Of a stretch of 64,000 nucleotides of DNA, positions 34,359 to 57,936 are shown one piece after another. Made by a program: the position numbers and the translations under genes. Position 1 is the first letter of the stretch. Every line of letters begins with the position of its first letter. The DNA comes from Pseudomonas sp. S09G 359 (lineage in GTDB: Bacteria; Pseudomonadota; Gammaproteobacteria; Pseudomonadales; Pseudomonadaceae), in contig NZ_CP025263.1 in assembly GCF_002843605.1 (NCBI RefSeq), positions 4,431,501-4,495,500 on the forward strand, written 5' to 3'. The notes below the pieces were generated by a model that made no database searches, was not told the DNA's origin, and saw only the letters and a program-made list of their open reading frames with translations.

Positions 34359-35234
34359 TTATGGCTGCTGGCTGATGTGTTCCAGGGTGTAGTGCAGTGA
34401 CGCGGGCAGCATGGGCCCATGACTCAAGCCAGGGAATGCCTGGTACTGCACTTTCAACCCCTTCACCTGCTGCAACGAGGCCAACAGTTGCTTCGCTGCT
34501 CCCCCCTGTTCGCCCTTGGGCCCGGTGCGCATCGCCGGGCTCGCGGGCTCTTCATCCCCACGCATCATCAGCAATGTGCGCGGCTTGCCGTGCAGGCGTT
34601 GCGCCAGGCCTTCGGTATTGATCACCCCGCCATTCCACCACAGCGACGGGCTCGCAGCCGCGTACTCATCGAATGCCTGTGGCCGGGTCATCAGCGTGTA
34701 CAACACCAGCAACCCACCATAGGAATGCCCCCACAACACCTGGCGCCTGGGCGTCTCTTGCAGACGCTGGTTGATCAGTGGGCGGATCTGCTCGGTCAGC
34801 AGGTCCAGGAACGGCTCCGCGCCGCCGCTGGGCACAGCCGTCAGCGGATCGCGTTGCGCGCCCTCGCCCACTTGGGGGGTGTAATCGAAAGTGCGGGCGT
34901 TGCGCTCGATGCGCAGTGGCGTGGCGTAGCCCACCGCGACCAGCACCGGCGGTGCGGCGCTGTGGGCCAGGCGGTGGAGCAGCGGCGTATCCAGCGCCGC
35001 CATCGCCGCGTTGCCGTCCAGCAGGTAGGCGACGGGGTTGGCGGTGCTGACCTTAAGCGGTCGGCCGAGCCAGATGCGATAGTGCCGAGCGCCATCGGCG
35101 GAGTCCAATTCCAAGGTGCTGAAACTGTAATCGCTGGCCTCGCGCAGCACCGGCGCATCCATCAGTTGCTCGGGGGCCGGCTTGGCATAGGCGCACTGGG
35201 CGAACAGCATGGCCAGCAGGATCACGCGCCCCAT
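34359..35234 (-). CDS. pfeE: Periplasmic enterobactin-type siderophore esterase (PfeE-like)
   Basis: 291 residues with signal peptide cleaved after AYA. Alpha/beta hydrolase of the Fes/IroE/PfeE family: WGHSYGG nucleophile Ser171, partner histidine in the C-terminal GLSHGP. The gene starts on the last base of the TonB receptor stop (TGATG). In P. aeruginosa the esterase PfeE opens ferri-enterobactin in the periplasm, and the same gene order pfeR-pfeS-pfeA-pfeE is seen here, which is strong context. Confidence 0.9.
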   Translation of the reverse strand: MGRVILLAMLFAQCAYAKPAPEQLMDAPVLREASDYSFSTLELDSADGARHYRIWLGRPLKVSTANPVAYLLDGNAAMAALDTPLLHRLAHSAAPPVLVAVGYATPLRIERNARTFDYTPQVGEGAQRDPLTAVPSGGAEPFLDLLTEQIRPLINQRLQETPRRQVLWGHSYGGLLVLYTLMTRPQAFDEYAAASPSLWWNGGVINTEGLAQRLHGKPRTLLMMRGDEEPASPAMRTGPKGEQGGAAKQLLASLQQVKGLKVQYQAFPGLSHGPMLPASLHYTLEHISQQP

Positions 35235-37477: not shown

Positions 37478-37529
37478 GCGGGGATCTCCAAACGTCAACC
37501 CAACCGATAGCGGTGGGCCATCAAAGATC

Positions 37530-37548
37530 GCAGATGATAATCAGATGC
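37530..37548. promoter_or_regulatory. Candidate Fur box upstream of pfeA
   Basis: The core TGATAATCA (37535-37543) matches nine consecutive positions of the 19-bp Fur consensus GATAATGATAATCATTATC; the outer arms are weak (about 12 of 19 overall). It lies 53-71 bp before the pfeA start and between pfeA and pfeS, as expected for an iron-repressed receptor gene. Confidence 0.6.
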
Positions 37549-37574
37549 AATTGCGAGTAAAGCAACTTAACTTT

Positions 37575-38918
37575 CTAAACATTTGCCGCCGGCAGGCGCA
37601 GGTTCATGCGCAAACCCGCGGCCCCCTGGGTTGCCCATAGCTCGCCGCCCTGCAGGGCAATGGCGCGTCGCGCAATGCTCAAGCCCAGGCCGAACCCCGT
37701 ACCCTGGGTGCCGTCCAGCCGCAGGTAGGCGTCGAAGATACGTTCCAGATCGCCTGCCGCCACCCCCGGCCCCTGGTCTTCGATCACCAGCCACCAGGTG
37801 TCGCCTTCGCGCTGCCCACTCAGGCGCACCACCCCGTGTGCGGGCGAGTGGCGGATGGCGTTGCGCAGGATATTTTCCAGGGCCTGGGCAAAGCTGTTGA
37901 GGTGCACGCGCACCTGGCAGGTGCTGTCCAGCTCACACACCAGCGCCGCCAGCGGCCAGCCGGTTTCGAAATGCGCATCCTGCACCAGGGCTTCCCACAC
38001 CGAGGCCACCACCACGTCTTCGGCGTCCAGGCGCGGTTTTTCGGTGTCGAGCCAGGCCAGGTTGAGGGAGTCGTCCACCAGCCGGCGCATGTCCTCCACC
38101 TCGCGGGCCAGGCGCTGCTCCAACTGCTCGGGGGGCAGGCCGCTTTCGCTGGCGATCTTCAAGCGCGCCAGCGGTGTACGGATTTCATGGGACAAGGTGC
38201 GCAGCAATTGCCGCTGCTGCTGCAGGCTCTGGCGCAGGCGCTCGGCCATGTGTTCATAGGCGCGAGCCAGCTCGCCCAACTCGTCCGGGCGGCGCGTAAC
38301 GCTGCTGCTCGCCAGCGGCGCCAAATCACCTGCGCTGAGCGCATTGGCGCGCTCACGCAGTTCATTCAACGGCTGCACCACGTGGCGATACAGCACTAAC
38401 CCCAACGCCAGCGCCAGCAACCCCGGGACCACGCCATGGGTAAACACATGGGTCCAGGGCGTCAGCCCCGGTGGCAGCAGGCGTTCCGGCAATTGCATCA
38501 CCAGGCGGCCGCGCTCGGGGTGTTGCGCGAAGGCGATGCTGACGTAGGGCAGCTCATCCTCCAGGCGCTTGCTCATCGGCCAACTGAGCTTGCGCATGAA
38601 GGTCAGGTGGCTGATCTGCTCGGCGGTCAACGGCGTGGTGCCCAGGCTCTGCAGGTGCTCATCCAGCACCGCGACCCAGGTGTGTTCACGCCTCTGCAAA
38701 GCCAGGCGCCAACGCTCCAGCGCTTCGCGATCGCCGCTGGCCGCCACCTGCTCGGCCTCGGCGGCATAGGCGGCCAGCGCGCCGCGGTCGGGTTGTTCGA
38801 GGAAGTAGGTGTTGCGTTCGACCTTCAAGCCCCAGTTCCACACCAGCCACACCAGCAGCAGGCAGGCGCACACTTGCAGCACCGCCATTTTCCACAGCAG
38901 TGGATGCCGTAGCTGCAT
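37575..38918 (-). CDS. pfeS: Sensor histidine kinase of the pfe locus
   Basis: 447 residues; the start ATG at 38918 overlaps the response-regulator stop (TGATG). A GTG 15 bases earlier is possible. Transmembrane segments at about 11-30 and 159-178 bracket a periplasmic sensor of roughly 128 residues. HAMP segment, phospho-acceptor His244 (TLSHEIRTPLARL), then N box (NILRNAIRHSP), G1 (DQGPGV) and G2 (GFGLGLSI). PfeS in P. aeruginosa senses periplasmic enterobactin and activates pfeA through PfeR. Confidence 0.92.
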   Translation of the reverse strand: MQLRHPLLWKMAVLQVCACLLLVWLVWNWGLKVERNTYFLEQPDRGALAAYAAEAEQVAASGDREALERWRLALQRREHTWVAVLDEHLQSLGTTPLTAEQISHLTFMRKLSWPMSKRLEDELPYVSIAFAQHPERGRLVMQLPERLLPPGLTPWTHVFTHGVVPGLLALALGLVLYRHVVQPLNELRERANALSAGDLAPLASSSVTRRPDELGELARAYEHMAERLRQSLQQQRQLLRTLSHEIRTPLARLKIASESGLPPEQLEQRLAREVEDMRRLVDDSLNLAWLDTEKPRLDAEDVVVASVWEALVQDAHFETGWPLAALVCELDSTCQVRVHLNSFAQALENILRNAIRHSPAHGVVRLSGQREGDTWWLVIEDQGPGVAAGDLERIFDAYLRLDGTQGTGFGLGLSIARRAIALQGGELWATQGAAGLRMNLRLPAANV

Positions 38919-39649
38919 CAGGCGCCGTCGCACATCAGCACATAACCCTGGTAACGCACGGCGTCAATGCGCAAACCTTGCACATGGATGGCCGCCAGCT
39001 TGCGCCGCAGGTTGCACACATGCACATCCAGGCCGCGATCCAGCCGGGTATAGGGTCGGTGCAGCACGTGTTGGTAAAGGAAGGCTTTGGTCAACGCCTC
39101 GCCGGTGTGCTCGTGCAGTGTGCACAGCAAGCGGAACTCCGAGGAGGTCAGCCCGGCGGCGTGGCCGTTAAGCCTCACATCGTGTGCATACGCGTCGAAC
39201 TCCAGGGCCGAGCTTCGGCGGGGCAATTGCGCGGCTTGGCTGCCGCAATCAATCGCCACCCGGCGCAGCAAGGCGTCAATGCGCACATCCAGCTCGGCGA
39301 GGCTGAAGGGCTTGGGCAAGTAGTCATCCGCGCCCTGGCTGAAGCCGGTGATACGGTCTTGCTCGGCGCCGAGGGCCGACATCAAAATCACCGGCGTGCC
39401 GCGCTCATGGCGCAGCCGCGCGAGGATAGTCAGGCCACTTTCATTCGGCAGCATGATGTCCAGCAGAATCAGTTCCACCGGCATGCGCAGCGCCAGGTCC
39501 AGGCCTTGATCGCCGCTATGCGCGCAGTTCAATGCAAAGCCACGCCGACTGAGATGGTTGCTCAGGTGCGTGCACAGCTCGACGTCATCCTCGATGATCA
39601 GGATGCGTGGAGTGGGTGCCGGGATAGATTCCAGATGATAAGTATTCAC
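38918..39649 (-). CDS. pfeR: Response regulator of the pfe locus (OmpR/PhoB type)
   Basis: 243 residues from GTG 39649 (no ATG fits before the receiver domain). Receiver with phospho-acceptor Asp64 (ILLDIMLPNESG), DDYLPKPF for the conserved lysine, and a winged-helix output domain (RLDRGLDVHVCNLRRKLAAI). The protein should activate pfeA when enterobactin is sensed. The ribosome site is weak. A perfect dyad GCGAAA-CA-TTTCGC lies just upstream. Confidence 0.9.
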   Translation of the reverse strand: MNTYHLESIPAPTPRILIIEDDVELCTHLSNHLSRRGFALNCAHSGDQGLDLALRMPVELILLDIMLPNESGLTILARLRHERGTPVILMSALGAEQDRITGFSQGADDYLPKPFSLAELDVRIDALLRRVAIDCGSQAAQLPRRSSALEFDAYAHDVRLNGHAAGLTSSEFRLLCTLHEHTGEALTKAFLYQHVLHRPYTRLDRGLDVHVCNLRRKLAAIHVQGLRIDAVRYQGYVLMCDGA

Positions 39650-39671
39650 AATTACGTCAGTTTCGCATTCG

Positions 39672-39685
39672 GCGAAACATTTCGC
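39672..39685. promoter_or_regulatory. Perfect dyad GCGAAA-CA-TTTCGC upstream of pfeR, candidate operator
   Basis: A 6-2-6 perfect palindrome within a 55-bp gap. It is flanked on one side by a direct copy of TTTCGCA (39661-39667), so TTTCGCA occurs twice 19 bp apart. This is a plausible binding site for PfeR autoregulation or another repressor; not proven. Confidence 0.4.
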
Positions 39686-39704
39686 AATGTGCGCCGAGCC
39701 TAAC

Positions 39705-40286
39705 TCACGGCCACACCGGTTCCCCCAGGTTCAGCATCAACCGGTTGGCCCAGGCGAAGATCGCGATGGCGTGGATCAGGTCAAGGATCTCGCCATCCTC
39801 CAGGCCCTGCTCGCGCAGTGCCGACAACGAAGCGGCACTGATCTCACCCGGGCTGAGCGTGAGGTCGATGGCAAAGCGCACGATGGCCTGTTCCCGAGCG
39901 GTGGTGCCGGCGCTATGCGGGTCAGCGAACACCTGGGCAATCACATCATTGCGCTTGGCCAACTGTTCGAAACGCTGGGCATGCACCGAGGCGCAGAACA
40001 CACAGCTGTTGATGCGCGACACCACCGCACTTGCCAGCTCACGCTCGGCGCGCGACAGGCCGCCCGGCGCATACATGATCGCGTTGAACGCCAGGGAGCG
40101 CTGGCGCAGTACCTCGGGCTGGTGGATCAGGGTCAAGTAATACTCGGAGACCTTGGCCTGGGGATGGCTCTCTTCGAGTACCGCCAGTTGCGTCGGGTTG
40201 GCCTGGGCCAGCTCGAGGGTCGGCAGCCAGGCTTTCCAGCCCAGGCTGCGGTTGGTGAAGCCTTGAATATCCAGGGGTTCGCTCAT
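39705..40286 (-). CDS. AhpD-like alkylhydroperoxidase domain protein (last gene of ten-gene operon)
   Basis: 193 residues. The redox motif is intact: SCVFCASVH with Cys95, Cys98 and His102, in a carboxymuconolactone-decarboxylase (CMD) fold. The arrangement of a CxxC CMD protein next to a non-CxxC CMD protein matches the pair I recall as the Avi_7169/Avi_7170 families. AhpD-type proteins reduce peroxides or disulfides with lipoyl partners. It overlaps the preceding gene by four bases and ends the operon 55 bp from pfeR. Confidence 0.85.
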   Translation of the reverse strand: MSEPLDIQGFTNRSLGWKAWLPTLELAQANPTQLAVLEESHPQAKVSEYYLTLIHQPEVLRQRSLAFNAIMYAPGGLSRAERELASAVVSRINSCVFCASVHAQRFEQLAKRNDVIAQVFADPHSAGTTAREQAIVRFAIDLTLSPGEISAASLSALREQGLEDGEILDLIHAIAIFAWANRLMLNLGEPVWP

Positions 40287-40747
40287 CGCAACTGCTCCAA
40301 TGCTTTCAGCCCGCTCGCCAGGCGCACTTGGTAGGAAATAAAGGCGATCAACTGGCCGAGGGTGACCACGTCAATGGTCTCAAGGCCTGCGTCCAGCAAC
40401 GGTGCCAATGCCTGGCGATCACCTTCCACGGGGGCCAGCACCAGGGTGCGGGTAAAATCCAGGATGGCTTTCAGGCGCGGCGAGTCCTGGGTCGCGGGCA
40501 GTGCTTGCAGGCGCTCGAGGTAGTGCGCGGCCAGCTCGGGTTGTGGCGTGAGCTGGCAGGCATATTCGGCTACCAGCAAACGTTCCTGCAGGCTCAGGCT
40601 GCCGGGCAAGTTTTCGGCGAACAGCGCCTGGTAACTGCCTTCGGTGGCATCGGTCACTTTGGCCCGCGCCTGGCGCAGGCCCTGCACGGGGCTGTGCTCG
40701 CTGAGCAACAGCCGGGTCAGCAGGTCGGGTAATACAGGACTGTTCAT
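40283..40747 (-). CDS. CMD-domain protein without the CxxC motif
   Basis: 154 residues. Helical CMD-like sequence (LSLQERLLVAEYACQL; TIDVVTLGQLIAFISYQVRLASGLKAL) with only one cysteine, so it cannot form the AhpD disulfide. It probably works with the AhpD-like protein encoded next, which has the CxxC pair, as a heteromer. Four-base overlaps on both sides. Family assignment (Avi_7170-like) is from memory of the gene order. Confidence 0.78.
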   Translation of the reverse strand: MNSPVLPDLLTRLLLSEHSPVQGLRQARAKVTDATEGSYQALFAENLPGSLSLQERLLVAEYACQLTPQPELAAHYLERLQALPATQDSPRLKAILDFTRTLVLAPVEGDRQALAPLLDAGLETIDVVTLGQLIAFISYQVRLASGLKALEQLR

Positions 40748-42003
40748 TGCAACTCCTTCAAATGCGCGCGGCGCGTGGCGACGGCGTCATGCAGAAAATC
40801 CACCACGGCCTGCCACGACTGCTGGTTGGCCTGGGCATTCGCCTCAGGCTGGCCGTCGTCGCTGTAGGTGCTGGGAATGTAAGGCAGCAAAATGCTGTGG
40901 CCGGCCAACGGAAAGTCGCGTTGCTGCACCGGCCAGGGGTGTTCGAATTGCGCCAGGCGCTCAGTGACCATCCGCCCGAAACGGCTGGACGGCCACGCCG
41001 CATCATCGCCAGCGGTGAGCAACAGCACCGGCCCGCGAATCCGTTCGACGGCTATACGCGCGCGCTCCACTGCGTCGCGGTCCTCAAGCGCGGTATTCAT
41101 CGCCAACGCATTCCGCAAGCCGGCGTCCCGCGCGGCCCAGGACGCATGGCGGTTGTTGTTCCACAGGTGTACCAGCGGCTTGCCGCGATACACCCAGGCC
41201 GGGCCATCGCGCCCCACCGCCGGGTCGGCGGCGGCCTGCCCGCCGTGCACCAGGGCGCTGGGCACGTAACCAATCACCGCCGATACCGACGCGGGAAACA
41301 GGCTGGCCAGCAACAACACCAATTCGCCGCCACGCGACTGCCCGCTCAGGGCGATAAAACCATCGGCGGGCGCCAGTTCGCGATGCATCCAGGCCAGGCC
41401 TTGTTCAAAGTATTCCAGCGGGGTGTTGGAGATATACTCCGACAGCCCCGGTGCCTTGAAATACCCCAGTGCCAGCGCGTTGTAGCCGCGCGACGCATAG
41501 AGCGCGGCGCGGGCCTCGTTGATGCCGCCACCGGAGCCATTGAGCACCATCACCGCCGGGTGTGGCCCGGCGCCGGCGGGCTGGAACAGGGTACCCACCA
41601 GGCCATCCTCACGCACCTCACGCCGGGTCACACCGGCTGCGGCCAGGCGTTGCACCAGCACCAGCGCTTGATCGCTGCCTTGCACGTCGATGCGGGTCTG
41701 CAACGGTTGCAGCACCGTCTCGGGAAACACCGCGGCACTGTGGCCCTGCTCGATACGCTGGCTCCACAACAAGCCCATGGCCGATACGCCGAGGTAGTCA
41801 CCCGCCACCGGCGCATCCCGCTCGAGATCCACGCGCCCATGGGCGTCGGCGACAAACGTCGCGGTGCTGCGCCAGGGCCGGTCGCCGCCGCGCAGGGTGC
41901 GGCTGTTCAACGTCACTTGCGCGCCGGGCGCCAGCCCTTCAACCACGATGCGCCGTGGTTCATCGAGCAAACCATCAAGAGGGGTGATTGCCAGGCGCGC
42001 CAT
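40744..42003 (-). CDS. Acyl-CoA thioesterase/BAAT-family alpha/beta hydrolase
   Basis: 419 residues. N-terminal Acot/BAAT immunoglobulin-like domain (1-130) and C-terminal hydrolase domain with nucleophile Ser223 in GQSRGG and histidine in PLAGHSILLPY. In animals and bacteria this family hydrolyses acyl-CoA or conjugates acyl groups to amino acids; a serine nucleophile indicates hydrolysis. No signal peptide, so it is cytoplasmic. In this operon it likely cleaves an ester, thioester or amide bond in the imported substrate. Confidence 0.85.
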   Translation of the reverse strand: MARLAITPLDGLLDEPRRIVVEGLAPGAQVTLNSRTLRGGDRPWRSTATFVADAHGRVDLERDAPVAGDYLGVSAMGLLWSQRIEQGHSAAVFPETVLQPLQTRIDVQGSDQALVLVQRLAAAGVTRREVREDGLVGTLFQPAGAGPHPAVMVLNGSGGGINEARAALYASRGYNALALGYFKAPGLSEYISNTPLEYFEQGLAWMHRELAPADGFIALSGQSRGGELVLLLASLFPASVSAVIGYVPSALVHGGQAAADPAVGRDGPAWVYRGKPLVHLWNNNRHASWAARDAGLRNALAMNTALEDRDAVERARIAVERIRGPVLLLTAGDDAAWPSSRFGRMVTERLAQFEHPWPVQQRDFPLAGHSILLPYIPSTYSDDGQPEANAQANQQSWQAVVDFLHDAVATRRAHLKELQ

Positions 42004-43568
42004 TACTTTTCCTCCGTCACCATCGAGGCGGTGGTGCGGTCGCTCACCAGCGGGTTGACACGCAGGCCTTTGCGGGCAGCCCAGATATTCTGGTAGTGGA
42101 ACAACGGCAGGATGCCCACGTCGTCGCTCACGCGCTGCACCGAATCACGCAGGATCGCTTCGCGCTTGCCTTCATCGAACTCGGCCGACGACAGTTCCAG
42201 GTCCTTGTCCACCTGCGGGTTGCTGTAGCGCCCCCAGTTCGACGAGCCCTGCCCTTTGCTCGGATCGGCGCTGGCCAGCACATTGAGCAGGCCATAGCCG
42301 GCCTCACCGGTGCCATTGCCCCAGGCGATCACAGTGACGGCGTATTCGTTTTTATTCGCGCGGCTGGCGTATACCGACCAGGGCACCACTTGCAGGTCGA
42401 CCTTGATGCCGACCCGCGCCCAGAACTGCGCCACCGCCTGCAAGGTTTCCGGCGCCAGTGGGTAGCGGTCGCCGGGCACATGCACGGTCAGTTGGAACCC
42501 GTCGGGGTAACCGGCTTCGGCGAGCAGCTTTTTCGCCTGGGCCGGGTCGTTGGCGATGTCTTTGACGTCTGGGTTGTAGCCGAAGGTATCGGCGGGCATC
42601 CACTGATTGGCCACGGTGACGGTGTTCTGCAAAATGCGCTCGGCAATGGCCTTGCGGTTGATCGCCAAGGACAGTGCCTGGCGCACCCGCACATCGCGCA
42701 GCGGGTTCTCGGCCAGCGGCTTGCCCTGGTTATCGCGGATAAATTCATTCGGCCCGACGCGGAAGCTTGGCTGGATCAGCAGCGCACGCAACCCGGGGTA
42801 GGCGAACACCTTGACGCTGGAGGTGGCCTGGAGTTTTTTCACGTCCTGGGGCGAGACCTTGTCGATCACATCGACGTCACCGGCCAGCAACGCGGCGGTG
42901 CGGCTCGCCGGGTTGGCGATAAAACGGTAGTCCACGGTGTCCCACAACGGCGGCTTGCCCCAGTAGTCCTTATTGCGCTCGAACAGCGTGCGGTCGCCCT
43001 GAGCGTACGACACCAATCGATAAGGCCCGGTGCCAATCACCGCCTTGCCGCTGTTGTAGTCCTCGGTACTGGATTTGGCGCCGATATGCCGGCTGACGAT
43101 GTAGACCGAGTCGATGTTCTGCACCAGCAACGGGTTGGGTACCGAGGTCTTCACGCGCAGGGTGTAGGGGTCGGGCGCACTGACCGATTCCACGGTGCGC
43201 AAACTGCTGGAATACGGCGCGACGCTGCCAGGCACATTGCGTGCGCGCTCCAGGGAAAACACCAGGTCATCGGCAGTGAACGGCTGGCCGTCCTGCCATT
43301 TCACCCCCTGGCGGATCTTGAATTCCCAGGTGTTGGCGTCGATCGCCTTCCAGCTTTCGGCCAGGCCCGGCAGGTTTTTGTCATCGCGGCGGTCGAGCAG
43401 GGACTCCCACACATGCAGCGCGATGGAACGGTCACCGGCGTGGTTGTTCAACTGCGGGTCCAACGACGATACCGGGTCGGCGTAGGCAATGCGCAGGGGC
43501 TGGGCGGTGGCCCCGTTGGCGCCGGTCAACAGCGCGGCAGTCAGTAGCGTCAGCAGCAAGGGCTTCAT
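42003..43568 (-). CDS. Oligopeptide/nickel-type ABC substrate-binding protein
   Basis: 521 residues. Signal peptide ending ATA-Q (cleavage near 22), then the SBP_bac_5 fold (LRIAYADPVSSLDPQLNNHAGD; LAESWKAIDANTWEFKIRQGVKWQDGQPFTADD). This family delivers peptides, nickel or glutathione-like solutes to Dpp/Opp importers. All transport partners lie immediately upstream, nine bases or less apart. The ligand is not predictable from sequence. Confidence 0.92.
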   Translation of the reverse strand: MKPLLLTLLTAALLTGANGATAQPLRIAYADPVSSLDPQLNNHAGDRSIALHVWESLLDRRDDKNLPGLAESWKAIDANTWEFKIRQGVKWQDGQPFTADDLVFSLERARNVPGSVAPYSSSLRTVESVSAPDPYTLRVKTSVPNPLLVQNIDSVYIVSRHIGAKSSTEDYNSGKAVIGTGPYRLVSYAQGDRTLFERNKDYWGKPPLWDTVDYRFIANPASRTAALLAGDVDVIDKVSPQDVKKLQATSSVKVFAYPGLRALLIQPSFRVGPNEFIRDNQGKPLAENPLRDVRVRQALSLAINRKAIAERILQNTVTVANQWMPADTFGYNPDVKDIANDPAQAKKLLAEAGYPDGFQLTVHVPGDRYPLAPETLQAVAQFWARVGIKVDLQVVPWSVYASRANKNEYAVTVIAWGNGTGEAGYGLLNVLASADPSKGQGSSNWGRYSNPQVDKDLELSSAEFDEGKREAILRDSVQRVSDDVGILPLFHYQNIWAARKGLRVNPLVSDRTTASMVTEEK

Positions 43569-43577
43569 GGCAAATTC

Positions 43578-44553
43578 CTAAGAGGCAAGGTTGAGGTGGC
43601 AGGCGCTCAAGTGGTCGGGTGACACTTCTCGAAGCGGCGGTATTTCTTCACGGCAACGCGCCGTGGCATGCGGGCAACGCGGGTGAAAGTGGCAGCCCGT
43701 GGGCGGGTTCAAGGGGCTCGGGATTTCGCCGCGAATCGCCTGGTACTGGCTGCGACGCAATTCGAACTTGGGGATCTGCGCCAGCAACGCCTGGGTGTAA
43801 GGGTGGTTAGCGCGGGCGAACAGTTCATCCACGGTCGCCGACTCCACCACCCGCCCCAGGTACATCACCACCACGCGGTCGCACAGGTGCTCGACCACGC
43901 CGAGGTCATGGCTGATAAACAGGTAGGTCAGCCCCAGTTGCTCGCGCAGGTCCATGAACAGGTTGAGGATCTGCGCCTGGATCGACACATCCAGCGCCGC
44001 CACCGACTCGTCACACACCAGCAACTGCGGCTGCACGGCCAGGGCGCGCGCGATACCGATGCGTTGGCGCTGACCGCCGCTGAATTGGTGCGGGTAACGC
44101 TGGCGCAACTCGGGGCTCAGGCCCGCACGGCGCAACTGGGCGCTGACGTAGTCGTCATACCCGCCACGGTCGATCAACCCCTGGCGCAATGCCCCTTCGC
44201 CGACAATACGGTCGACCCGCAGCCGTGGGTTGAGGCTGGCGTACGGGTCCTGGAAGATCATTTGCACCTTGAGCCTTTGCGCCGCGCCCAGCGCGTGCAT
44301 CGGCTGGCCGTCCAGCGCCACGCTGCCACTGGAAGCCGGCAGCAGGCCGGCGACCATGCGCCCCAGGGTGGATTTGCCGCAACCGGACTCCCCCACCAGC
44401 CCTACCACTTCGCCGCGGGCAATACGCAGGTCGACGTTGTCTACCGCGCGCGTCAGCGGACGTGGGCGGCTCAGGCCGAGGCGTTGCAACAGGCCGCCGG
44501 GCGCCTGGCCAAACTGTTTGCTGACCTGTCGCAACTCAATCAACGGCACGGGT

Positions 44554-44564
<11 letters not shown>
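43578..44564 (-). CDS. Oligopeptide-type ABC transporter ATP-binding protein (DppF/OppF-like)
   Basis: 328 residues from the ATG at 44564 (GGAGGTG upstream). Walker A GESGCGKST, FQDPYASLNPRLRV, signature FSGGQRQR, Walker B LLVCDESVAALD, H-loop ISHDLGVV, and the C-terminal cysteine cluster CHFHPRCPHATARC typical of Opp/Dpp ATPases. It overlaps the other ATPase gene by 11 bases. Confidence 0.93.
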
Positions 44565-45548
<984 letters not shown>

Positions 45549-45552
<4 letters not shown>

Positions 45553-46433
45553 CGCTGCAACCTCGGATTGAGCACGTCCCGCAGGCGGTCGCCTACCAGG
45601 TTGATCGCGACGATGGTCAGCAGTAGCGCCAAGCCGGGGAACACACTGATCCAATATTCATCACCGAGCATGAACTGGAAGCCGTTGGCGATCAGCAGGC
45701 CCAGGGACGGTTCGGTAATCGGTACGCCAAGGCCAAGGAACGACAGGGTCGCCTCCAGGGTGATGGCGCGGGCGATCTGCAGCGCACCGATCACAATCAG
45801 TGGCGGCAGGCAGTTGGGCAGGATATGCCCGACCAGGATGCGCCAGCGGCTGATGCCCTGACCACGGGCGGCCTCGACGTACTCACGGCGGCTTTCCACC
45901 AGCGCCTGGCCACGCGCGGTACGTGCGTAGTACGCCCACTCCAGCACCACCAGGGTCAGCACCACGTTGCCCACGCCCTTGCCCAGCCAGGCCAGGATCA
46001 TCAGCGCCATCAGGATGCCGGGAAACGACAACAGCAGGTCCACCAGGCGCATCAGCAGCGCATCCACCCAGCCGCCGGCATACGCCGACACCAGCCCGAG
46101 CAACGTACCGATCACGGCGGCGATCAACGCCGAGCCAACCCCCACCAGCAGGCTGATACGCAGCCCGTAGACAATCGCCGAATACAGGTCACGCCCCTGG
46201 CCGTCGGTGCCCAGCCAATAGGTGTAATGCCCTTCGCCGCTGGTGGCGCCGGGCGCCAGGCGTGCATCCAGTACATCCAGCTGCATCAGGTCATAGGGAT
46301 TTTGCGGAGTGATCCACGGCGCCAGCAGCGCGGCCAATACGATCACCGCCAGGATCAGCAGGCCGACAATCGCCAGGGGCGAACGCATGAAATCCATGGC
46401 GCCGCGTTGCCACAGTGACTGCACGCGGGTCAT
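45549..46433 (-). CDS. Oligopeptide-type ABC transporter permease (DppC-like)
   Basis: 294 residues from the ATG at 46433. N-terminal anchor (LAIVGLLILAVIVLAALLAPWI), then the DppC periplasmic segment (HYTYWLGTDGQGRDLYSAIVYGLRISLLVGV) and coupling loop EYVEAARGQGISRWRILVGHILPN. Four-base overlaps on both sides. Confidence 0.93.
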
Positions 46434-47404
46434 TGCGCACCTTCCAGGCGCACGCGCGGATCCAGCAGGCGATACAGCACATCCACCAGCAGGTTGAGGC
46501 TGACGAAAATCACCACGACCACCATCAGGTACGCCACCACCACCGGCCGATCGAGGCTGTTGATGCTGTCGAGGATCAGTTTGCCGGCGCCGGGCCAGGC
46601 GAAGATGCTTTCGGTGACCACCGCGTAGGCGATGGTCGAGCCCAGCTCCAGGCCGAGCACCGTCACCAGCGGAATCAAGGTATTGCGCAACACATGCATA
46701 AGCGTCACTCGCAGCGGCGACAGCCCCTTGGCCCGGGCGAACTTGACGAAATCCTGGGGCAGGATTTCGCGCACGCCGGCGCGGGTCAGGCGCAGCACCA
46801 GGGAAATTTTGAACAACGCCAGGTTCAACGCCGGCAGCAACAAGTGCTGCCAGCCATCGAGGGTCAACCATGACCATTGGATACCCAGCCATTCACGTGT
46901 CGCGCCACGCCCACTGGCGGGCAGCCAGCCCAGGTGCACCGAAAACAGCATGATCAGCATCAGCGCTACCCAGAACGACGGCAGCGAGAAACCGACGATG
47001 CTGCCCGTCATCATCAACCGTGAGGCGAAGTGTTCCGGATACAGGCCGGCAAACAGCCCCAGCGGTACGCCGATCACAATCGCCATGAGCAAGGCGCTGA
47101 AAGCCAGCTCGAAGGTCGCCGGCAACCGCTGCAGGATCAGCTGCAATGCGTCTTCGTGATGCACGAAACTCTTGCCCAGGTGACCGTGCAGCGCGCCGTT
47201 GAGGAACGTGAGGTATTGCTGCCACAGCGGCTGGTCCAGGCCCAGGCGTGCAATGGCCTGCAAGCGTTCGGCCTGGTTGAGGTCTTCGCCGATGAGGATA
47301 TCCACCGGGTTGCCGATGGCATTCAGGCCGACGAACACGATCAGGGTCATCAGCAGCATCACCAGCACGGCCTGGCCCACACGCCGGAGTAACCACGCGG
47401 TCAT
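46430..47404 (-). CDS. Oligopeptide-type ABC transporter permease (DppB-like)
   Basis: 324 residues from the ATG at 47404. DppB hallmarks: LLRRVGQAVLVMLLMTLIVF at the N-terminus, GVPLGLFAGLYPEHFASRL, and coupling loop DFVKFARAKGLSPLRVTLMHVLRN. First gene of the ABC part and overlapping the monooxygenase stop by four bases. Confidence 0.93.
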   Translation of the reverse strand: MTAWLLRRVGQAVLVMLLMTLIVFVGLNAIGNPVDILIGEDLNQAERLQAIARLGLDQPLWQQYLTFLNGALHGHLGKSFVHHEDALQLILQRLPATFELAFSALLMAIVIGVPLGLFAGLYPEHFASRLMMTGSIVGFSLPSFWVALMLIMLFSVHLGWLPASGRGATREWLGIQWSWLTLDGWQHLLLPALNLALFKISLVLRLTRAGVREILPQDFVKFARAKGLSPLRVTLMHVLRNTLIPLVTVLGLELGSTIAYAVVTESIFAWPGAGKLILDSINSLDRPVVVAYLMVVVVIFVSLNLLVDVLYRLLDPRVRLEGAQ

Positions 47405-48861
47405 GTACGCCGCTCCTCGGCCCGCAGACTGCCCACCTGCCATTCATCGCCTTGCAGCTCTGGTTCGGCATAGGTTTGCATGGCGGCGAAGTGCAGCTCG
47501 ACGTCATCGTTGAACAACTGCCCGGCCAGGCCCTGGGCCATACGCTTGGCGCCTTCGCTGATGGCCGGGATGTCGCCGGATACGCCGCCGTAAGTCAGCG
47601 CTGCCGGGTAACTGAAGCAATGCACGCGGTCCAGGCCAGGGCAGGCGCCGGGCGTGCGCGGCTGGAATTCGAACAGCGCGCCGAGGTCCGGCAGTTGCGA
47701 CAGCTCCAGGTCTTCCTGGCCGGCGGGCGCGGTGTAGCGGTCGCGCCAGAGTTTGATATGCGGCGCGAACGGCGCGAATTCCGGACGCAAGTCGAGGTTG
47801 CTGCGAAACCCGGTGGCGAACACCAGAAAGTCGTAGCTCAACCGCGCCGTGGGGGTGTGCAGCACCAGGCTGCCGTCGCCTTGGACCGCCACCGACTCGA
47901 CGGGGCTGCTCAGCAGAAAGCGTGCATTGGCGTGGCGCGACACCCGCAAGGTGCTGCCATGGGGCGGCGGCACCTGCTGCAAGTTCAGGTAATGGCGGAT
48001 GCTCCACTTCCAATCGTCCGGCAAGCGCCAGTAGCCATGGGTCATGCCCGGGCTGCCGGCGCCTTTGCCCTTGTTGATACGTGGCAGATCCTTGCGCCGT
48101 ACCAGCAGGTCGACGTTAAGCGCGCCGGCTTCCAGCGCGGTACCGGCAGCGTCCATCGCCGAGGCGCCGCCGCCGATTACCGCCACGCGCTTGCCGACAA
48201 ACCAGGCATCCTCCAGGCCATCGGCGGAATGCGCCCAATACTCGCGGGGCAACTGGCGCGCCAGCTCAGGCACCCAAGGGCCGCCCAACCCATCGCGCCC
48301 GGTGGCCAACACCACGTGCCGTGCCGAGAACACCTGTGCCTGGCCTTGCACCTCAACGTGCAACTCCACGCGCCCATCCGCCAACGGTTGCACCCGGGTG
48401 ACACGGTGCTGGTTGCGCACATCCAGGCGCAGCACCTGGCGATACCAGCGCAAGTAATCGGCCCATTGCAGGCGCGGAATTTTATCCAGCGCCTCCCACG
48501 CCTGCAGGCCGAACTGCGCCTGGAACCAGGCGCGGAACGTCAGCGCCGGCAAGCCCAGGGCCGGTCCGCTCAACTGCTTGGGCGAGCGCAGCGTTTGCAT
48601 GCGCGCGGTGGTTGCCCACGGCCCTTCGAAACCTTGCGCCGCCTGGTCGAACACCACCGCCCGCACGCCCAGGTGGCCAAGCTCAGCCGCCACCGCCATG
48701 CCCGCCATCCCGCCGCCGATCACGGCCACTTCCAGCAAGGGCCGCCCCTCCAGCTGGCGCGGTTTCACCCAGGGCTGGGCGGGAAGGTCGAGCCACTCCA
48801 GGTCCTCGCGCAGGCGCGCTTCGAGGGCGGGTAGACCGATGGGTGCGGTGGTGTGCGGCAT
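47401..48861 (-). CDS. FAD-dependent monooxygenase / oxidoreductase (FMO-like)
   Basis: 486 residues. Two Rossmann motifs, GGGMAG at about 50-55 (FAD) and IGGGASAMDAAG around 225 (NADPH), the pattern of flavin monooxygenases and Baeyer-Villiger-type enzymes. Later FATGFRSNLDL matches the ATG-type motif. The protein lacks a signal peptide. Its position between the TonB receptor and the ABC permease, with a four-base overlap to the latter, suggests that it oxygenates the imported compound, perhaps at sulfur or nitrogen, before the hydrolase acts. Confidence 0.87.
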   Translation of the reverse strand: MPHTTAPIGLPALEARLREDLEWLDLPAQPWVKPRQLEGRPLLEVAVIGGGMAGMAVAAELGHLGVRAVVFDQAAQGFEGPWATTARMQTLRSPKQLSGPALGLPALTFRAWFQAQFGLQAWEALDKIPRLQWADYLRWYRQVLRLDVRNQHRVTRVQPLADGRVELHVEVQGQAQVFSARHVVLATGRDGLGGPWVPELARQLPREYWAHSADGLEDAWFVGKRVAVIGGGASAMDAAGTALEAGALNVDLLVRRKDLPRINKGKGAGSPGMTHGYWRLPDDWKWSIRHYLNLQQVPPPHGSTLRVSRHANARFLLSSPVESVAVQGDGSLVLHTPTARLSYDFLVFATGFRSNLDLRPEFAPFAPHIKLWRDRYTAPAGQEDLELSQLPDLGALFEFQPRTPGACPGLDRVHCFSYPAALTYGGVSGDIPAISEGAKRMAQGLAGQLFNDDVELHFAAMQTYAEPELQGDEWQVGSLRAEERRT

Positions 48862-48906
48862 CGTTGGGGTACTCGATCAAGTGAGCGGGCACACGGCCCG
48901 CATAGG

Positions 48907-51405
48907 TTAAAAGTCGATGTTCAGGCGGCTGTAGTAGAACGCCCCGTAGGAACCGAATGGCGAGATCGACGAGTAGTAGGAACCGCCGGAAACATCGGTC
49001 ACGGTGTGCTTGTCCGGGTAGACGTTGAACAGGTTGTCAGCGCCCAGGGAGACCCGCACGTTGTCGGTCAGGGCATACGTCACGTCGACATCGGTGATCC
49101 ATTTGGCGCCGAAGGTTTCATCCACCCCGGTGGTGCCGCTGCCCAGGCGCTTGACCTTGCCGTAGCGGGTGGTGCGTACGCCGACGTCCCAGTCATTGAC
49201 CTGCCAGTTGAGGCCGACGATGTACTTGCTCTTGGGGGTCAGGTCGGTAATCCCACCCAGCTCGGTGCGCTCGAAACGCTGCAGGCCGAGGCTCTGCAAT
49301 TGCGCCGGGTTGGCCTTGAGGTCGGTGATGGTGGCCTTGTTCCAGTTGGCGCCAACGTTCCAGCGCAGGCGGCCGAAACGCTCCAGGTACTGGGTGTAGT
49401 CGGCTACCAGGTCGAGGCCCTTGGTGCGGGTATCGAAGGCATTGGCGTAGTACTGCACCTGCTGCACATGGGAAAACCCGTTGGCCGCGAGGATCTGGTC
49501 GACGGCCGCGCCCGACAACGGGCTGATCAGCGCGATGCGATCCTGCAGGTCGATCACGTAGGCATCCAAGGCCACGTTGAGGTCTTTGACCGGGGTCCAG
49601 GTCAGGCCGGCAGAGATGCTTTGCGACTTCACCGGCTCGAGGTCTTCGGCGCCCAGTGCACGGCCGATAGCCGAATAGGTCTGCACGCGCTTGATCATGA
49701 TGTCTTGGGTGGTGTTGCCCACGGTGCGACGGCCCAGCCCCGTCTTGGCGTACCCCTGCTGCACCATCGAGGGTGCAACGAAACCACTGCTGAGCGCGCC
49801 GCGTGCAGCAATCTCCGGGGTGAAGGCATAGCGGGTGGAGAGCTTGCCGGTCCAGGTATTGCCCGAGCTGTCGGTGTAATGCTCGAAACGCCCGGCGGCG
49901 CCCACGAACCATTTATCAGTCACGTCCAGGCCAAGATCGATATAGGCCGCCGTGTCACTGCGACGCAGGTTGACCTCATCCTCGGGCAGCAACAGGTAAT
50001 TGCCGAGGGCGCCGATAGCCGCCAACTGGCCTGCACGCGGGTGGCCGACCGGGTAGCGATAGTTGCCATTGCGGTAGGAGTCGACATCGCCGGACTCCGT
50101 GCGGTACTGCTCGAAGCGGTATTCCAGGCCGGTGGCAAAGTTCAGCGGGTTGCGCGTGCCGATATCGAGCTTGCGGTTGAGGTCCAGGTTGGTGGTCCAC
50201 TGCGTGAACTGGTTGGTCTGCAAGGTGAAGTCGGTGGGGCTGGCAGTGCCCAGGGACGGGTTGAGGTTGTTTTCGGTCATCTGCTTCTGGCGGTTGGCGC
50301 CATACGAGGTGCTCAGGTCCCAGCCCCACCCTGCCAGGTCATCACCACGGGCACCGAAGGTGCTTTGGTAGTCGAGGCTTTCAAAGGTGAAATCCGGCGC
50401 AATGCCATCCGGGTACAGCTCGTTGATGATGGTGTTGGAATTGGGCCGCCGAAAGCCAATGGACACCAGAGCATCCTGCTTGCCCAAGGTGCTGAAGGAA
50501 TACAACGAGGTTGAATCGTTGAGCGGCAATTCGGCGTTGTACGACAGGTTGATCTGCTCGATTTCAGGCAGGCCGCCACCAAAGCTGCGCTTCTCCACGG
50601 TGTTTTCGCGGGGGTCGGGTTGGCCGTTGACCGGGTAGTAGAACGCACCGGTGGCCACGCCGGAGCGCTTGGTGCTGTCCTGCTTCTTGGCGTCGAGGGC
50701 GAAATTGAAGAACCCTTCGTTGGGCAATGGCAAACCGTAGTTGAAGGTTTGTTGGTAGGTCTCACCGTTGGAGCCGACGCCGCTGGCGTAATGGGAGCGG
50801 CGCCCGGCCATGGTGCTGGAACTGCCGCCGCTGCTGTCGGACTTGAGGATGATATTGATCACCCCGGCAATGGCGTCCGAACCATATTGGGCGGCCGCAC
50901 CGTCGCGCAGCACCTCGACACGGTCGATGGCGCTGATGGGAATCAGATCGAGGTCCGCCGGGTTCCAGCCCTCGACCAATACCGAGTTCTCCGACGCGAC
51001 CGAGCCGCCATGCCGGCGCTTGCCGTTGACCAGTACCAGCACATAACCGCCGCCCAAACCGCGCAGGCCGGCCGCCCGTGCCACGTTGCTGTAGGCACCG
51101 CCCGTGACCTTGGCCACGTTGAACGAAGGCAACAGGTGCTCAAGCGCATCGCGCAGCGCCGTGCTGCCGCCCTGCTTCTGCAGGTCTTCGCCACCGATCA
51201 CGTCGATCGGCACGGCGCTCTGCGCCACGGTGCGCTGGTTGCCGCGGTTGCCCACCGACACCACGGTCTGCATGACCGGCTCGGCTTTCTTGCGTTCTGT
51301 GTCTGGGTCGTCATCGGCCAACAGCGGTGTAGACGCCAGGCACAACCCGGTCAGCGCGAAGGCTGCCGGTGAAAAAAATGCGTTCGATGAAAAGCTGGGT
51401 TGCAT
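48907..51405 (-). CDS. TonB-dependent outer-membrane receptor (first gene of ten-gene operon)
   Basis: 832 residues from the ATG at 51405 (GGGGAG upstream; the TTG two codons earlier is rejected). Signal peptide ending in LLAD. Plug domain: VPIDVIGGEDLQKQGGSTAL, AGLRGLGGGYVLVLVNGKRRH and VLRDGAAAQYGSDAIAGVINIIL. The remaining 600 residues form the barrel, ending FYYSRLNIDF. The GKRRHGGS style is of the large CirA/BtuB-unrelated receptors that take up non-siderophore nutrients. It opens an operon with a monooxygenase, oligopeptide-type ABC importer and hydrolase, so it probably imports the same compound. No Fur-like site was noticed upstream. Confidence 0.92.
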   Translation of the reverse strand: MQPSFSSNAFFSPAAFALTGLCLASTPLLADDDPDTERKKAEPVMQTVVSVGNRGNQRTVAQSAVPIDVIGGEDLQKQGGSTALRDALEHLLPSFNVAKVTGGAYSNVARAAGLRGLGGGYVLVLVNGKRRHGGSVASENSVLVEGWNPADLDLIPISAIDRVEVLRDGAAAQYGSDAIAGVINIILKSDSSGGSSSTMAGRRSHYASGVGSNGETYQQTFNYGLPLPNEGFFNFALDAKKQDSTKRSGVATGAFYYPVNGQPDPRENTVEKRSFGGGLPEIEQINLSYNAELPLNDSTSLYSFSTLGKQDALVSIGFRRPNSNTIINELYPDGIAPDFTFESLDYQSTFGARGDDLAGWGWDLSTSYGANRQKQMTENNLNPSLGTASPTDFTLQTNQFTQWTTNLDLNRKLDIGTRNPLNFATGLEYRFEQYRTESGDVDSYRNGNYRYPVGHPRAGQLAAIGALGNYLLLPEDEVNLRRSDTAAYIDLGLDVTDKWFVGAAGRFEHYTDSSGNTWTGKLSTRYAFTPEIAARGALSSGFVAPSMVQQGYAKTGLGRRTVGNTTQDIMIKRVQTYSAIGRALGAEDLEPVKSQSISAGLTWTPVKDLNVALDAYVIDLQDRIALISPLSGAAVDQILAANGFSHVQQVQYYANAFDTRTKGLDLVADYTQYLERFGRLRWNVGANWNKATITDLKANPAQLQSLGLQRFERTELGGITDLTPKSKYIVGLNWQVNDWDVGVRTTRYGKVKRLGSGTTGVDETFGAKWITDVDVTYALTDNVRVSLGADNLFNVYPDKHTVTDVSGGSYYSSISPFGSYGAFYYSRLNIDF

Positions 51406-51630
51406 GGGCAAACTCCCCGAAAAATCGCCAAAAAGGGTGTAACTGGTCGTGCGGCGATTTGCCGAGGTCGGCTGGATGTCCGCGAAGCAAGATGAGCTGG
51501 GTGAACAGTCATCAATTCGTTTTCGTGATTCATTGGCGCATTGAATGCGGTAAATGAATACTAAGGCGCATCACTTATTCCATCTACTAATTAATAGAGC
51601 TATGCATATCTCCAAATTGAATATAAAGGG
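51406..51630. promoter_or_regulatory. AT-rich gap upstream of the TonB receptor operon
   Basis: 225 bases between the receptor start and the LysR stop, with an AT-rich core (about 51540-51630). This is the expected promoter of the ten-gene unit. No site is assigned. Confidence 0.5.
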
Positions 51631-52581
51631 TCAGCTGGCGTAAATGCGCTGCATCAAGGCGTCATGCGCGTTGGCCGGGTGGATGATCATGCCCGGGAGT
51701 AACTCCTGGGAGCAGGCTTGCAGCGCCTCGATCAATGCCTGGGCCACCTCGGACAGCGGGCTGGCGTAGGCGGAAATCAAGCCGAAGAAAAACGGAATGG
51801 TGCTTTCGATCGGCCGCACCACCACGCCGCTGAGCGGCACGCCAAACGCAGTGAACGGATCGACCAAGGCCACGCCGAGACCGGCGCGGGCCATTTGCAT
51901 GGCGGTCAACGAGGTGTTGGTTTCGAGGATGTGCTGGGGCTCGGCGCCGACGTTTTCAAATGCCTTGTTGATCCGGCGGCGAAAGCGAAACGGGTTGGAA
52001 ATACTGATCAGCGTGTGCTGCGCCAGGGTCTGCATGCTCAGTACCGACTCCGCCGCCAGCGGTGAGTCCTCTGCCAGTACGGCCACGCAAGCGGCCTCAC
52101 CGATCCAGTGCACTTCCAGGCCACGGTGCTCCAGGGGCAGGCTGACCACGCCGAGGTCAACGGTTTTGGCCAATACCGCCTGCACCACACCTTCGGGCGT
52201 GAGGCTCTGGATCTGCAATTGCTGAGGGCGCAGGTGGTTCGGCAAGCGCGCCAGGGCCGGGGGTACCAGGCCGGCCGCCAGGGCCGGGGTTGCGACCACG
52301 CGCAGGCTGAGGTTCTCGTCACGGGCGATGTTCAAGGCCCGCTGCTGCACATGCCGAACCCCTTGCAGCGCACTGTCCACCTCGGCCGACAGCTTGAAGG
52401 CTTTCTGGGTGGGCGTGACTTTGGGGCCGCTGCGCTCGAACAACGCAAAGCCCAGCTCCTGTTCCAACTCCTGGATCAGGCGCGTGACCGTCGGCTGCGA
52501 ACGGCCCAGCATCTGCCCGGCACCGGTGACACTGCCTGCCGACATGACTGCGGCAAATGCTTCCAGCTGGCGTAGATCCAC
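51631..52581 (-). CDS. LysR-family regulator between the two uptake clusters
   Basis: 316 residues from GTG 52581, which has a strong AAAGGAGA six bases upstream; an upstream frame start at 52623 has none. Helix-turn-helix LRQLEAFAAVMSAGSVTGAGQMLGRSQPTVTRLIQELEQELG, effector domain LSLRVVATPALAAGLVPPAL, GLGVALVDPF. It lies upstream of the TonB-FMO operon on the same strand and diverges from the NMT1-like gene, so it could regulate either or both. Confidence 0.9.
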   Translation of the reverse strand: MDLRQLEAFAAVMSAGSVTGAGQMLGRSQPTVTRLIQELEQELGFALFERSGPKVTPTQKAFKLSAEVDSALQGVRHVQQRALNIARDENLSLRVVATPALAAGLVPPALARLPNHLRPQQLQIQSLTPEGVVQAVLAKTVDLGVVSLPLEHRGLEVHWIGEAACVAVLAEDSPLAAESVLSMQTLAQHTLISISNPFRFRRRINKAFENVGAEPQHILETNTSLTAMQMARAGLGVALVDPFTAFGVPLSGVVVRPIESTIPFFFGLISAYASPLSEVAQALIEALQACSQELLPGMIIHPANAHDALMQRIYAS

Positions 52582-52752
52582 CGGAATCTCCTTTGAAGTA
52601 ACTGATGGCGGTGGAGTGTACACAGCAGCACTCGCTCAGGGCAGAGCCGAACCACGCGGTTATATCCATAGCAATAAAGGATATTGGTATATACCAGATT
52701 GCTCGCTTATAAATCGCTCCCATCAAAGGACGTTGGGCTGGAGTAACACGCG
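52582..52752. promoter_or_regulatory. Divergent promoter region between LysR and NMT1-like gene
   Basis: 171 bases. Contains TATATCC and GGATATTGGTATATACC, AT-rich palindromic-looking sequence near 52660-52697, in the right place for a LysR operator and promoters. No TPP-riboswitch motif (CTGAGA) was found. Confidence 0.5.
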
Positions 52753-55651: not shown

Positions 55652-55776
55652 CGCCCTCTGCGGCGAACTCGGCTTTTTCATTTCGTACTGGCAACCCGTC
55701 GTTGCGCAGCGCTGGGCACCCTGTTGCCCGATAAAAGCGTACGGCAGCGGCGGCAGGCCTTTGGAGCGCTCTTTTC

Positions 55777-57924: not shown

Positions 57925-57936
57925 GGCTGAGTGTTT

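Follow-up and report, generated by a model that had tools for sequence, protein, structure and literature searches.

A ten-gene operon of Pseudomonas sp. S09G 359 as a candidate system for scavenging organosulfur compounds

Which compound is taken up and broken down by an operon that extends from an outer-membrane receptor to cytoplasmic enzymes? The question is raised by ten minus-strand genes in a 64,000-nucleotide stretch of the genome of Pseudomonas sp. S09G 359 (contig NZ_CP025263.1, positions 4,431,501 to 4,495,500; hereafter the window), a genome consisting of a single contig of 6.77 Mb. The genes encode a TonB-dependent receptor, a protein resembling flavin-containing monooxygenases (FMO), an Opp-type ABC importer with its solute-binding protein (SBP), a BAAT-type hydrolase, and two proteins of the CMD type, CMD1 and the AhpD-like CMD2. 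An organosulfur role for the operon is probable, because genes for cysteine-sulfur enzymes lie near the FMO and CMD2 genes of other loci and because paralogs of the receptor lie in clusters marked by sulfonate genes or luciferase-like monooxygenases (LLM). The fuller reading is that of scavenging through oxidative C-S cleavage, with an S-substituted cysteine, or an acylated or peptidyl form of one, as the most probable organosulfur substrate; it stands close to an even balance. A mechanism acting on modified cysteines, taken by itself, is plausible, at somewhat under an even chance.

The evidence comes from comparisons across 298 Pseudomonas genomes for FMO and CMD2 (296 for the receptor), 142 fetched FMO loci (91 with CMD2 and 51 without) and 40 control windows. 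Gene positions were compared in 84 gene-called FMO+CMD2 loci; the gene caller overlooked CMD2 in at least L084 and the FMO in nine of the 142 loci. When named genomes were scanned, 83 relatives were found and 80 loci returned; 68 of these (L059-L126) were used, the remainder being weak partial matches. Orthologs of the FMO (69-100% identity) occur in 16 of the Pseudomonas genomes, and seven more contain relatives of 38-43% identity. Four of the 16 ortholog loci (our own, G132, G149 and G164) include the receptor and BAAT genes, eleven consist only of LysR-FMO-permB-permC-atpD-atpF-SBP-CMD1-CMD2, and in one (L053) LysR-FMO-CMD1-CMD2 precedes an Opp importer other than this one. A LysR homolog (67-87% identity) stands ahead of the FMO or receptor gene in the other 15. 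The full set of ten genes is also present in P. aegrilactucae (L062), and the Opp+BAAT layout recurs minus the receptor in loci of Achromobacter, Comamonas, Herbaspirillum, Ralstonia, Collimonas and Burkholderia; in the Burkholderiales loci of this layout (between L063 and L076) the individual proteins are 45-79% identical. Since the gene order recurs in other pseudomonads and, receptor-free, in Burkholderiales, the operon is not a chance arrangement.

Beyond these layouts the importer varies. FMO-CMD1-CMD2 loci that lack the importer of this layout are among those from Acidovorax, Variovorax, Pusillimonas and others, and on plasmids of Pantoea, Rhizobium and Thioclava LysR-FMO-CMD has a polar amino-acid ABC importer next to it. 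Near other loci there are TRAP, Tct, LIV-type and MFS genes, a number of which belong to the common background, TctC most of all. TctC was considered as a sign of a tricarboxylate-type substrate and dropped, as it is also present in 4/40 control windows. What stays constant across alpha-, beta- and gammaproteobacteria is FMO-CMD1-CMD2, mostly accompanied by LysR. Different lineages use different importers, BAAT was seen only where an importer of this Opp type is present, and the TonB receptor seems to have been added in a few pseudomonads. These observations refine the sequence-only reading, which had described a dedicated acquisition and breakdown operon for a large or scarce compound. One operon of that kind is present; its ten genes do not form one indivisible pathway, since core and accessory parts separate across loci, and the idea of a large substrate loses ground because the core, found elsewhere beside amino-acid ABC, TRAP, Tct and MFS transporters, does not require one.

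Within the core, FMO and CMD2 belong together. Of the 298 Pseudomonas genomes, 23 have a strong FMO-family match; 19 have a TIGR04030 match above 130 bits, and every one of these is included in the 23. The other four, FMO-only (G051, G071, G073 and G287), contain FMO relatives of 42-43% identity, and G051 has a 95-bit CMD match. CMD2 lies on the FMO strand in 78 of the 84 gene-called loci and no more than two genes from the FMO in 38; where the layout is of the Opp type, importer genes separate the two.

Genes for cysteine-sulfur enzymes accompany this core. Three types, a Cds1-like desulfhydrase, an IscS-like desulfurase and a SufS-like class V enzyme, were taken as markers and counted by tblastn. 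Marker genes are present in 18/91 FMO+CMD2 loci, compared with 0/51 FMO loci without CMD2 and 0/40 control windows; with near-identical loci removed, the counts become 18/87, 0/50 and 0/40 (Fisher p 1.6e-4 and 7e-4). In all but one of the 18 marker loci (17/18) the marker is at most two genes from FMO, CMD2 or a LysR gene. A Cds1-like L-cysteine desulfhydrase gene (554 bits for one scored, against a cut-off of 600) adjoins FMO or CMD in Pseudomonas (L054, L057), Pseudochrobactrum (L085), Bradyrhizobium (L087) and Thioclava (L093), and later in L225; it overlaps CMD1 in L087 and is beside CMD1 in L085, which has the Opp+BAAT layout. RidA accompanies it in L054, L057, L093 and L225, standing between FMO and Cds1 in L054 and L225. 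The Pseudomonas loci L054, L057 and L225 share an arrangement in which two small permease-like genes, an ABC ATPase, FMO (36-39% identity), RidA and the Cds1-like gene all run one way behind a divergent Lrp/AsnC gene, and CMD1-CMD2 lies nearby; judged by gene lengths and sequence, the transporter genes resemble those of polar amino-acid importers.

The IscS-like gene (535 bits for one scored; cut-off 548) adjoins LysR in Herbaspirillum, Collimonas and P. aegrilactucae and follows CMD2 in Pseudomonas sp. JUb42. The P. aegrilactucae locus has the layout of the window's operon, with receptor and BAAT. In Rhizobium TAL182 the core is flanked by a SufS-like class V enzyme (135 bits; cut-off 475), an Lrp/AsnC regulator, a Blh-type persulfide dioxygenase and a TauE/SafE exporter, and R. 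tumorigenes has a similar set eight genes off from the core. The persulfide dioxygenase, an MBL protein, occurs in two Rhizobium loci (537.8 bits for one scored; cut-off 625).

A second association concerns the receptor. In a survey that scored at most three candidates per genome, its orthologs (75-100% identity) were found in 4/296 Pseudomonas genomes, all within this operon, and the next relatives are about 50% identical. Twenty paralog loci were taken from the upper part of the list of receptor relatives, and 18 of them contain LLM, SsuA, SsuD or TauD homologs, compared with 1/40 control windows; minus the two loci that supplied queries, the count is 16/18 (Fisher p 3e-11 against controls). 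Two paralog loci of the same genome, L278 and L279, have receptors 47-50% identical to that of the operon. L278, whose receptor (50%) is located at G000:C1:4524210-4526558, about 29 kb beyond the window end, contains a class II aldolase, an SsuA-like SBP (144.8 bits; cut-off 163.5), the receptor, an NtaA/DmoA monooxygenase, a TIGR04028-like SBP and an Opp importer. L279 contains SsuA (208 bits), TauD (215 bits), a four-domain rhodanese, an SsuD-like protein and AhpC/TSA. Both clusters share a related TonB receptor with the operon, and L278 also an Opp importer and a monooxygenase, but they carry the NtaA/DmoA LLM, SsuA-like proteins and (L279) TauD, with no FMO, BAAT or CMD2 labelled there. 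The L278 layout is seen again in several Pseudomonas genomes.

Across the whole genome there are 56 TonB receptor matches, seven of which have an LLM gene or an SsuA match above 100 bits no more than 10 kb away. The seven include both own-genome paralogs scored in the receptor survey, and they represent a modest excess over a rotation mean of 2.9, reached in 207/5000 rotations. Among nine other own-genome receptor windows, two have sulfonate/LLM markers, both overlapping the L278 or L279 stretch. Of the three substrate classes that the sequence-only reading had offered (sulfur, selenium or acyl), sulfur is favoured by the neighbouring cysteine-sulfur enzymes and by these receptor paralogs.

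The same paralogs, lying in SsuA/TauD/LLM clusters, could also be taken to suggest that the operon serves the use of sulfonates or sulfate esters in the manner of Ssu, Tau or Ats systems, with the FMO in place of a luciferase-type desulfonase. We consider this improbable, as no SsuA, SsuD, TauD or sulfatase is among the operon's hits and the neighbours of the core indicate cysteine, not sulfite, as the product.

If a modified cysteine is the substrate, the gene products can be arranged in a candidate pathway. The TonB receptor would carry the compound across the outer membrane, and the SBP with the Opp-type importer would bring it into the cytoplasm, where the BAAT serine hydrolase may strip an acyl, ester or amide part. 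The FMO-like enzyme would then oxygenate the thioether, and the C-S bond would break, giving a carbonyl compound together with a cysteine sulfenic acid or thiol. CMD2, through its CxxC motif and with the CxxC-less CMD1, would reduce the reactive sulfur product, and cysteine or sulfide would pass into metabolism; where Cds1/RidA or desulfurases are present, they would use the cysteine. A bolder generalization, which we find rather doubtful, is that FMO-CMD1-CMD2 forms an undescribed, widespread trio for oxidative C-S cleavage of modified cysteines. In it, the sulfoxide or sulfenic product of an FAD monooxygenase would be passed to a heteromeric AhpD-like reductase of one catalytic and one degenerate subunit; each lineage would supply its importer and a matched hydrolase (BAAT with Opp), and some pseudomonads would add a sulfur-type TonB receptor.

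The oxygenase is likely a monooxygenase, and its action on sulfur is a proposed role. Both GxGxxG/A motifs and the FATG-type motif are present in 17/17 aligned FMO-family sequences; FxGxxxHxxx(Y/F/W), which we take to be the canonical flavin-containing monooxygenase fingerprint, is present in 1/17, and the window's own protein lacks it. Its top NCBIfam score, to ArsO, is weak (53.9 bits against a cut-off of 425), and it matches Lys_Orn_oxgnase (PF13434) at 60 bits. The AlphaFold model is of moderate confidence (pLDDT 65.9) and was used for fold class only; its top matches are the amino N-hydroxylases PvdA, SidA and DfoA, followed by the bacillithiol disulfide reductase YpdA and FMOs.

These N-hydroxylating folds, with the PF13434 match, lend some support to another explanation, in which an opine-like or N-linked amino-acid conjugate is used as a carbon or nitrogen source: the FMO would N-oxygenate it like SidA or PvdA, BAAT would cut an amide or ester, the CMD pair would handle the oxidised product, and sulfur would be incidental. 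In keeping with it, six plasmid loci have genes of the octopine/nopaline-dehydrogenase family near FMO-CMD (five annotated as such, that of Sinorhizobium recognised by similarity), and the SBP is related to agrocinopine binders. On plasmids of Agrobacterium, Sinorhizobium, Aminobacter, Nitratireductor and Shinella the core is accompanied by such dehydrogenase genes and by PotF/PhnS-like ABC importers. The operon's own family hits include no opine dehydrogenase, and both the cysteine desulfhydrase and desulfurase genes of the FMO+CMD2 loci, which the controls lack, and the receptor paralogs in sulfonate clusters point elsewhere, so that we regard an opine-type substrate as unlikely.

The CMD pair was assigned to the Avi_7170/Avi_7169 kind by the sequence-only reading, and profile searches agree. 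CMD1 passes TIGR04029 (CMD_Avi_7170; 105.6 bits, cut-off 100.75). CMD2 falls under the cut-off of TIGR04030 (perox_Avi_7169; 175.6 versus 233.15 bits), a value reached in 0/298 Pseudomonas genomes, and passes the peroxidase-related family TIGR01926 (207.6 bits, cut-off 81.8). The AhpD-type motif E-x11-CxxCxxxH is kept in 34/34 CMD2 sequences, and CxxC is found in 0/30 CMD1 sequences. The CMD1 model (pLDDT 94.1) has AhpD-type structural matches (best E 5.9e-4 to 3c1l and 6.5e-4 to 6k40); with the missing CxxC, these suggest that CMD1 is an AhpD-fold partner of CMD2 minus the cysteine pair. The two are fused in one open reading frame (ORF) of 388-421 amino acids in L063, L064, L067, L070, L071, L083, L090 and L111, which suggests an obligate pair.

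An AhpD-type motif would also suit a peroxidase, and the operon might accordingly detoxify an electrophile, peroxide or xenobiotic rather than gain a nutrient. Some FMO-CMD loci have a 2-hydroxychromene-2-carboxylate isomerase-type protein and MATE exporters nearby. Import across two membranes would be costly for a toxin, though; an importer gene is labelled somewhere in 77/84 gene-called FMO+CMD2 loci (some labels, e.g. TctC, being common in controls), and the neighbouring genes release or use cysteine sulfur. The probability of detoxification is therefore small.

The hydrolase is of the BAAT/acyl-CoA thioesterase type. Its Pfam domains are above cut-off (PF04775 at 99.6 bits, PF08840 at 81.2 bits), and by alignment S223, D333/D334 and H369, a putative Ser-Asp-His set, match ACOT4 residues that we take to be catalytic. 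BAAT occurs in 26/142 fetched FMO loci, all 26 with an Opp binding protein and permease by tblastn. A mutual dependence of TonB receptor and BAAT, considered because the 16 ortholog loci within Pseudomonas have both (4) or neither (12), was rejected, as BAAT occurs receptor-free in Burkholderiales and in two alphaproteobacteria (L085 and L086).

For the SBP, the nearest solved sequence is 5u4o, followed by dipeptide and agrocinopine binders. Together with the permeases it gives matches below cut-off to transporter families for nickel and staphylopine. These matches are among the points in favour of a metallophore being taken up, or both made and taken up, on the pattern of opine-metallophore systems, the FMO acting as an IucD/PvdA-like hydroxylase. 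The combination of TonB receptor and Opp importer, the SidA/PvdA-like fold and a PfeRS-PfeA-like unit directly downstream fit as well. SppR-SppABCD, a putative xenosiderophore system of P. aeruginosa, also combines a TonB receptor with an Opp-type importer; the likeness is to its general description as we know it, and to our knowledge it has no FMO or CMD genes. Scanned with what we take to be the Fur and Zur consensus sequences, the region upstream of the operon gave best matches equalled in 282 and 285 of 300 shuffles, and iron or zinc control was dropped as an idea. No siderophore synthesis genes are among the operon's family hits, and elsewhere the FMO-CMD core is receptor-free beside TRAP, Tct, MFS or amino-acid importers. 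We give metallophore uptake little credence.

The proposed handling of a modified cysteine has parallels. As outlined in PMC10863075, Bacillus salvages S-alkylcysteines by acetylation, sulfoxidation by CmoO, C-S cleavage by CmoJ to a sulfenic acid and an aldehyde, reduction and deacetylation; a related gene set, scm (yxe), breaks down S-(2-succino)cysteine in Bacillus subtilis, as summarized in PMC9706529 and PMC12757645. On those outlines, both would resemble the present proposal in that a flavin monooxygenase splits the C-S bond in a modified cysteine, deacylation takes place and the product is cysteine; the sulfenic intermediate is reduced in the Cmo route, a role that the CMD pair may fill here. 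They differ in that the oxygenase here is FAD/NAD(P)H-type and FMO-like, not luciferase-type, the scm enzyme YxeK being described as FMN-dependent. The CMD pair and BAAT replace the acetyltransferase and M20 deacetylase, and a TonB receptor and Opp importer are added. The parallel is thus an analogy of roles, not membership. Closer in gene content is the KPN_01854-type cluster (TIGR04028/04029/04030), in which a CMD pair is accompanied by a flavin monooxygenase, presumably an LLM, and by an ABC importer of the peptide type. The operon differs from it in its FMO-like oxygenase and in its SBP (99.7 bits against the TIGR04028 cut-off of 468.5) and CMD2, both under the family cut-offs.

Several observations weigh against scavenging of a modified cysteine by this operon. 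The sulfur markers were picked after the first loci had been inspected (the discovery set), and among FMO+CMD2 loci fetched later they are present in 3/17 (3/15 without near-identical loci), two of these three having marker genes 93-95% identical to those of discovery loci. The loci compared are phylogenetically related, 73 of the 91 FMO+CMD2 loci are without any marker gene, and every sulfur-enzyme score is under its NCBIfam equivalog cut-off, the SufS-like one far under. Among the receptor paralog loci, 2/20 have no sulfonate/LLM markers; one own-genome paralog (43.6% identity; L299, G000:C1:3100001-3118000), from the nine other receptor windows, likewise has none, with an SBP_bac_5 gene within 10 kb. 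Within the window itself, LLM, SsuA, SsuD, TauD and four-domain-rhodanese queries found no homolog, and the operon's Pfam/NCBIfam hits include no N-acetyltransferase, M20 deacetylase or LLM, unlike the Cmo/Scm clusters. The PvdA/SidA-like folds of the model also make N- rather than S-oxygenation by the FMO-like enzyme possible.

No paper describing this gene set was found in the open-licence PubMed Central literature, judged by titles, the openings of abstracts and term counts. In the main text of a paper on sulfur starvation in PAO1 (PMC12581299), as far as it was covered, the terms alkylhydroperoxidase, PA2330, PA2331 and flavin were not found. If the proposed role is correct, it would provide a function for two CMD families entered in NCBIfam as hypothetical equivalogs, as well as for a large FMO-like family. 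It would also point to a proteobacterial counterpart of cysteine salvage in Bacillus, and to pseudomonad TonB receptors that serve the uptake of modified cysteines. The analysis narrows the choice for this operon to a small number of compounds and reactions that can be tested.

The features of the locus are collected in Table 1. Searches against Pfam and NCBIfam uphold the gene identities given from sequence alone, and all ten genes form one tight run from 51405 to 39705 with overlaps or gaps below 50 bp, as had been described. From receptor to CMD2 the junctions are 45 bp, the largest gap, then -4, -4, -4, -11, +9, -1, -4 and -4. The receptor start was placed at 51405; a TTG-initiated ORF reaches 51411. 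A consensus scan of 38800-52800 gave one promoter-like site, on the plus strand (shuffle mean 2.4), and four terminator-like sites (shuffle mean 10.4). A sigma54-like site upstream of the operon scores 13/15, a value equalled in 45/300 shuffles. The LysR protein would be the candidate regulator.

Table 1. Positions of the operon genes and adjoining features, in window coordinates.
Feature	Position	Strand	Family, motif or remark
TonB-dependent outer-membrane receptor	48907..51405	-	PF00593/PF07715
FMO-like FAD/NAD(P)H oxidoreductase, predicted monooxygenase	47401..48861	-	two dinucleotide-binding motifs, FATGF; canonical FMO fingerprint absent
Opp/Dpp-type ABC permease B	46430..47404	-	BPD_transp_1, OppB type
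Opp/Dpp-type ABC permease C	45549..46433	-	BPD_transp_1, OppC type
Opp/Dpp-type ATPase D	44554..45552	-	Pfam/NCBIfam
Opp/Dpp-type ATPase F	43578..44564	-	Pfam/NCBIfam
Family-5 solute-binding protein	42003..43568	-	SBP_bac_5, 315.5 bits
BAAT/acyl-CoA thioesterase-type hydrolase	40744..42003	-	BAAT N+C domains; G-Q-S223-R-G, D333/D334, H369
CMD1, AhpD-fold partner (predicted) without CxxC	40283..40747	-	TIGR04029
CMD2, AhpD-like	39705..40286	-	TIGR01926; E-x11-CxxCxxxH
LysR regulator	51631..52581	- (same strand)	225 bp upstream of receptor gene
Operon upstream region, between LysR and receptor	51406..51630	-	no Fur-/Zur-like site above shuffles
Response regulator, downstream unit	38918..39649		
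Histidine kinase, downstream unit	37575..38918		
PfeA-like receptor, downstream unit	35234..37477		

The next genes downstream begin 55 bp past the operon, and the response regulator, kinase and PfeA-like receptor look like a separate unit. With an esterase they occupy 34359-39649, a group that we take to resemble the PfeRS-PfeA genes of enterobactin uptake. Upstream of LysR, a plus-strand run at 52753-58773 encodes an NMT1/THI5-like binding protein, an APH-type kinase, a rhodanese, another TonB receptor and an acid phosphatase, and is possibly a further acquisition operon.

More widely, searches with strict cut-offs detected the FMO family in 3/369 class-level genomes (own genome included), 24/349 order-level genomes (order of G521) and 13/299 phylum-level genomes (own genome included). 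In the protein search the best 120 of 3971 matches are all at least 65% identical, and the closest named relatives among the matches listed are pseudomonads. Two more distant loci have distinct surroundings. On the pTi plasmid of Agrobacterium fabrum Kin001 (L155), a 37% FMO relative is preceded by two luciferase-type monooxygenases and followed by an Opp importer and an acyl-CoA dehydrogenase-family gene, adjoining aiiB. Rhizobium terrae (L104) has two FMO-family matches in one region, the first with a PhnS-like importer, a DsbA-like protein and an M19 dipeptidase, and the second beside an Opp-type permease.

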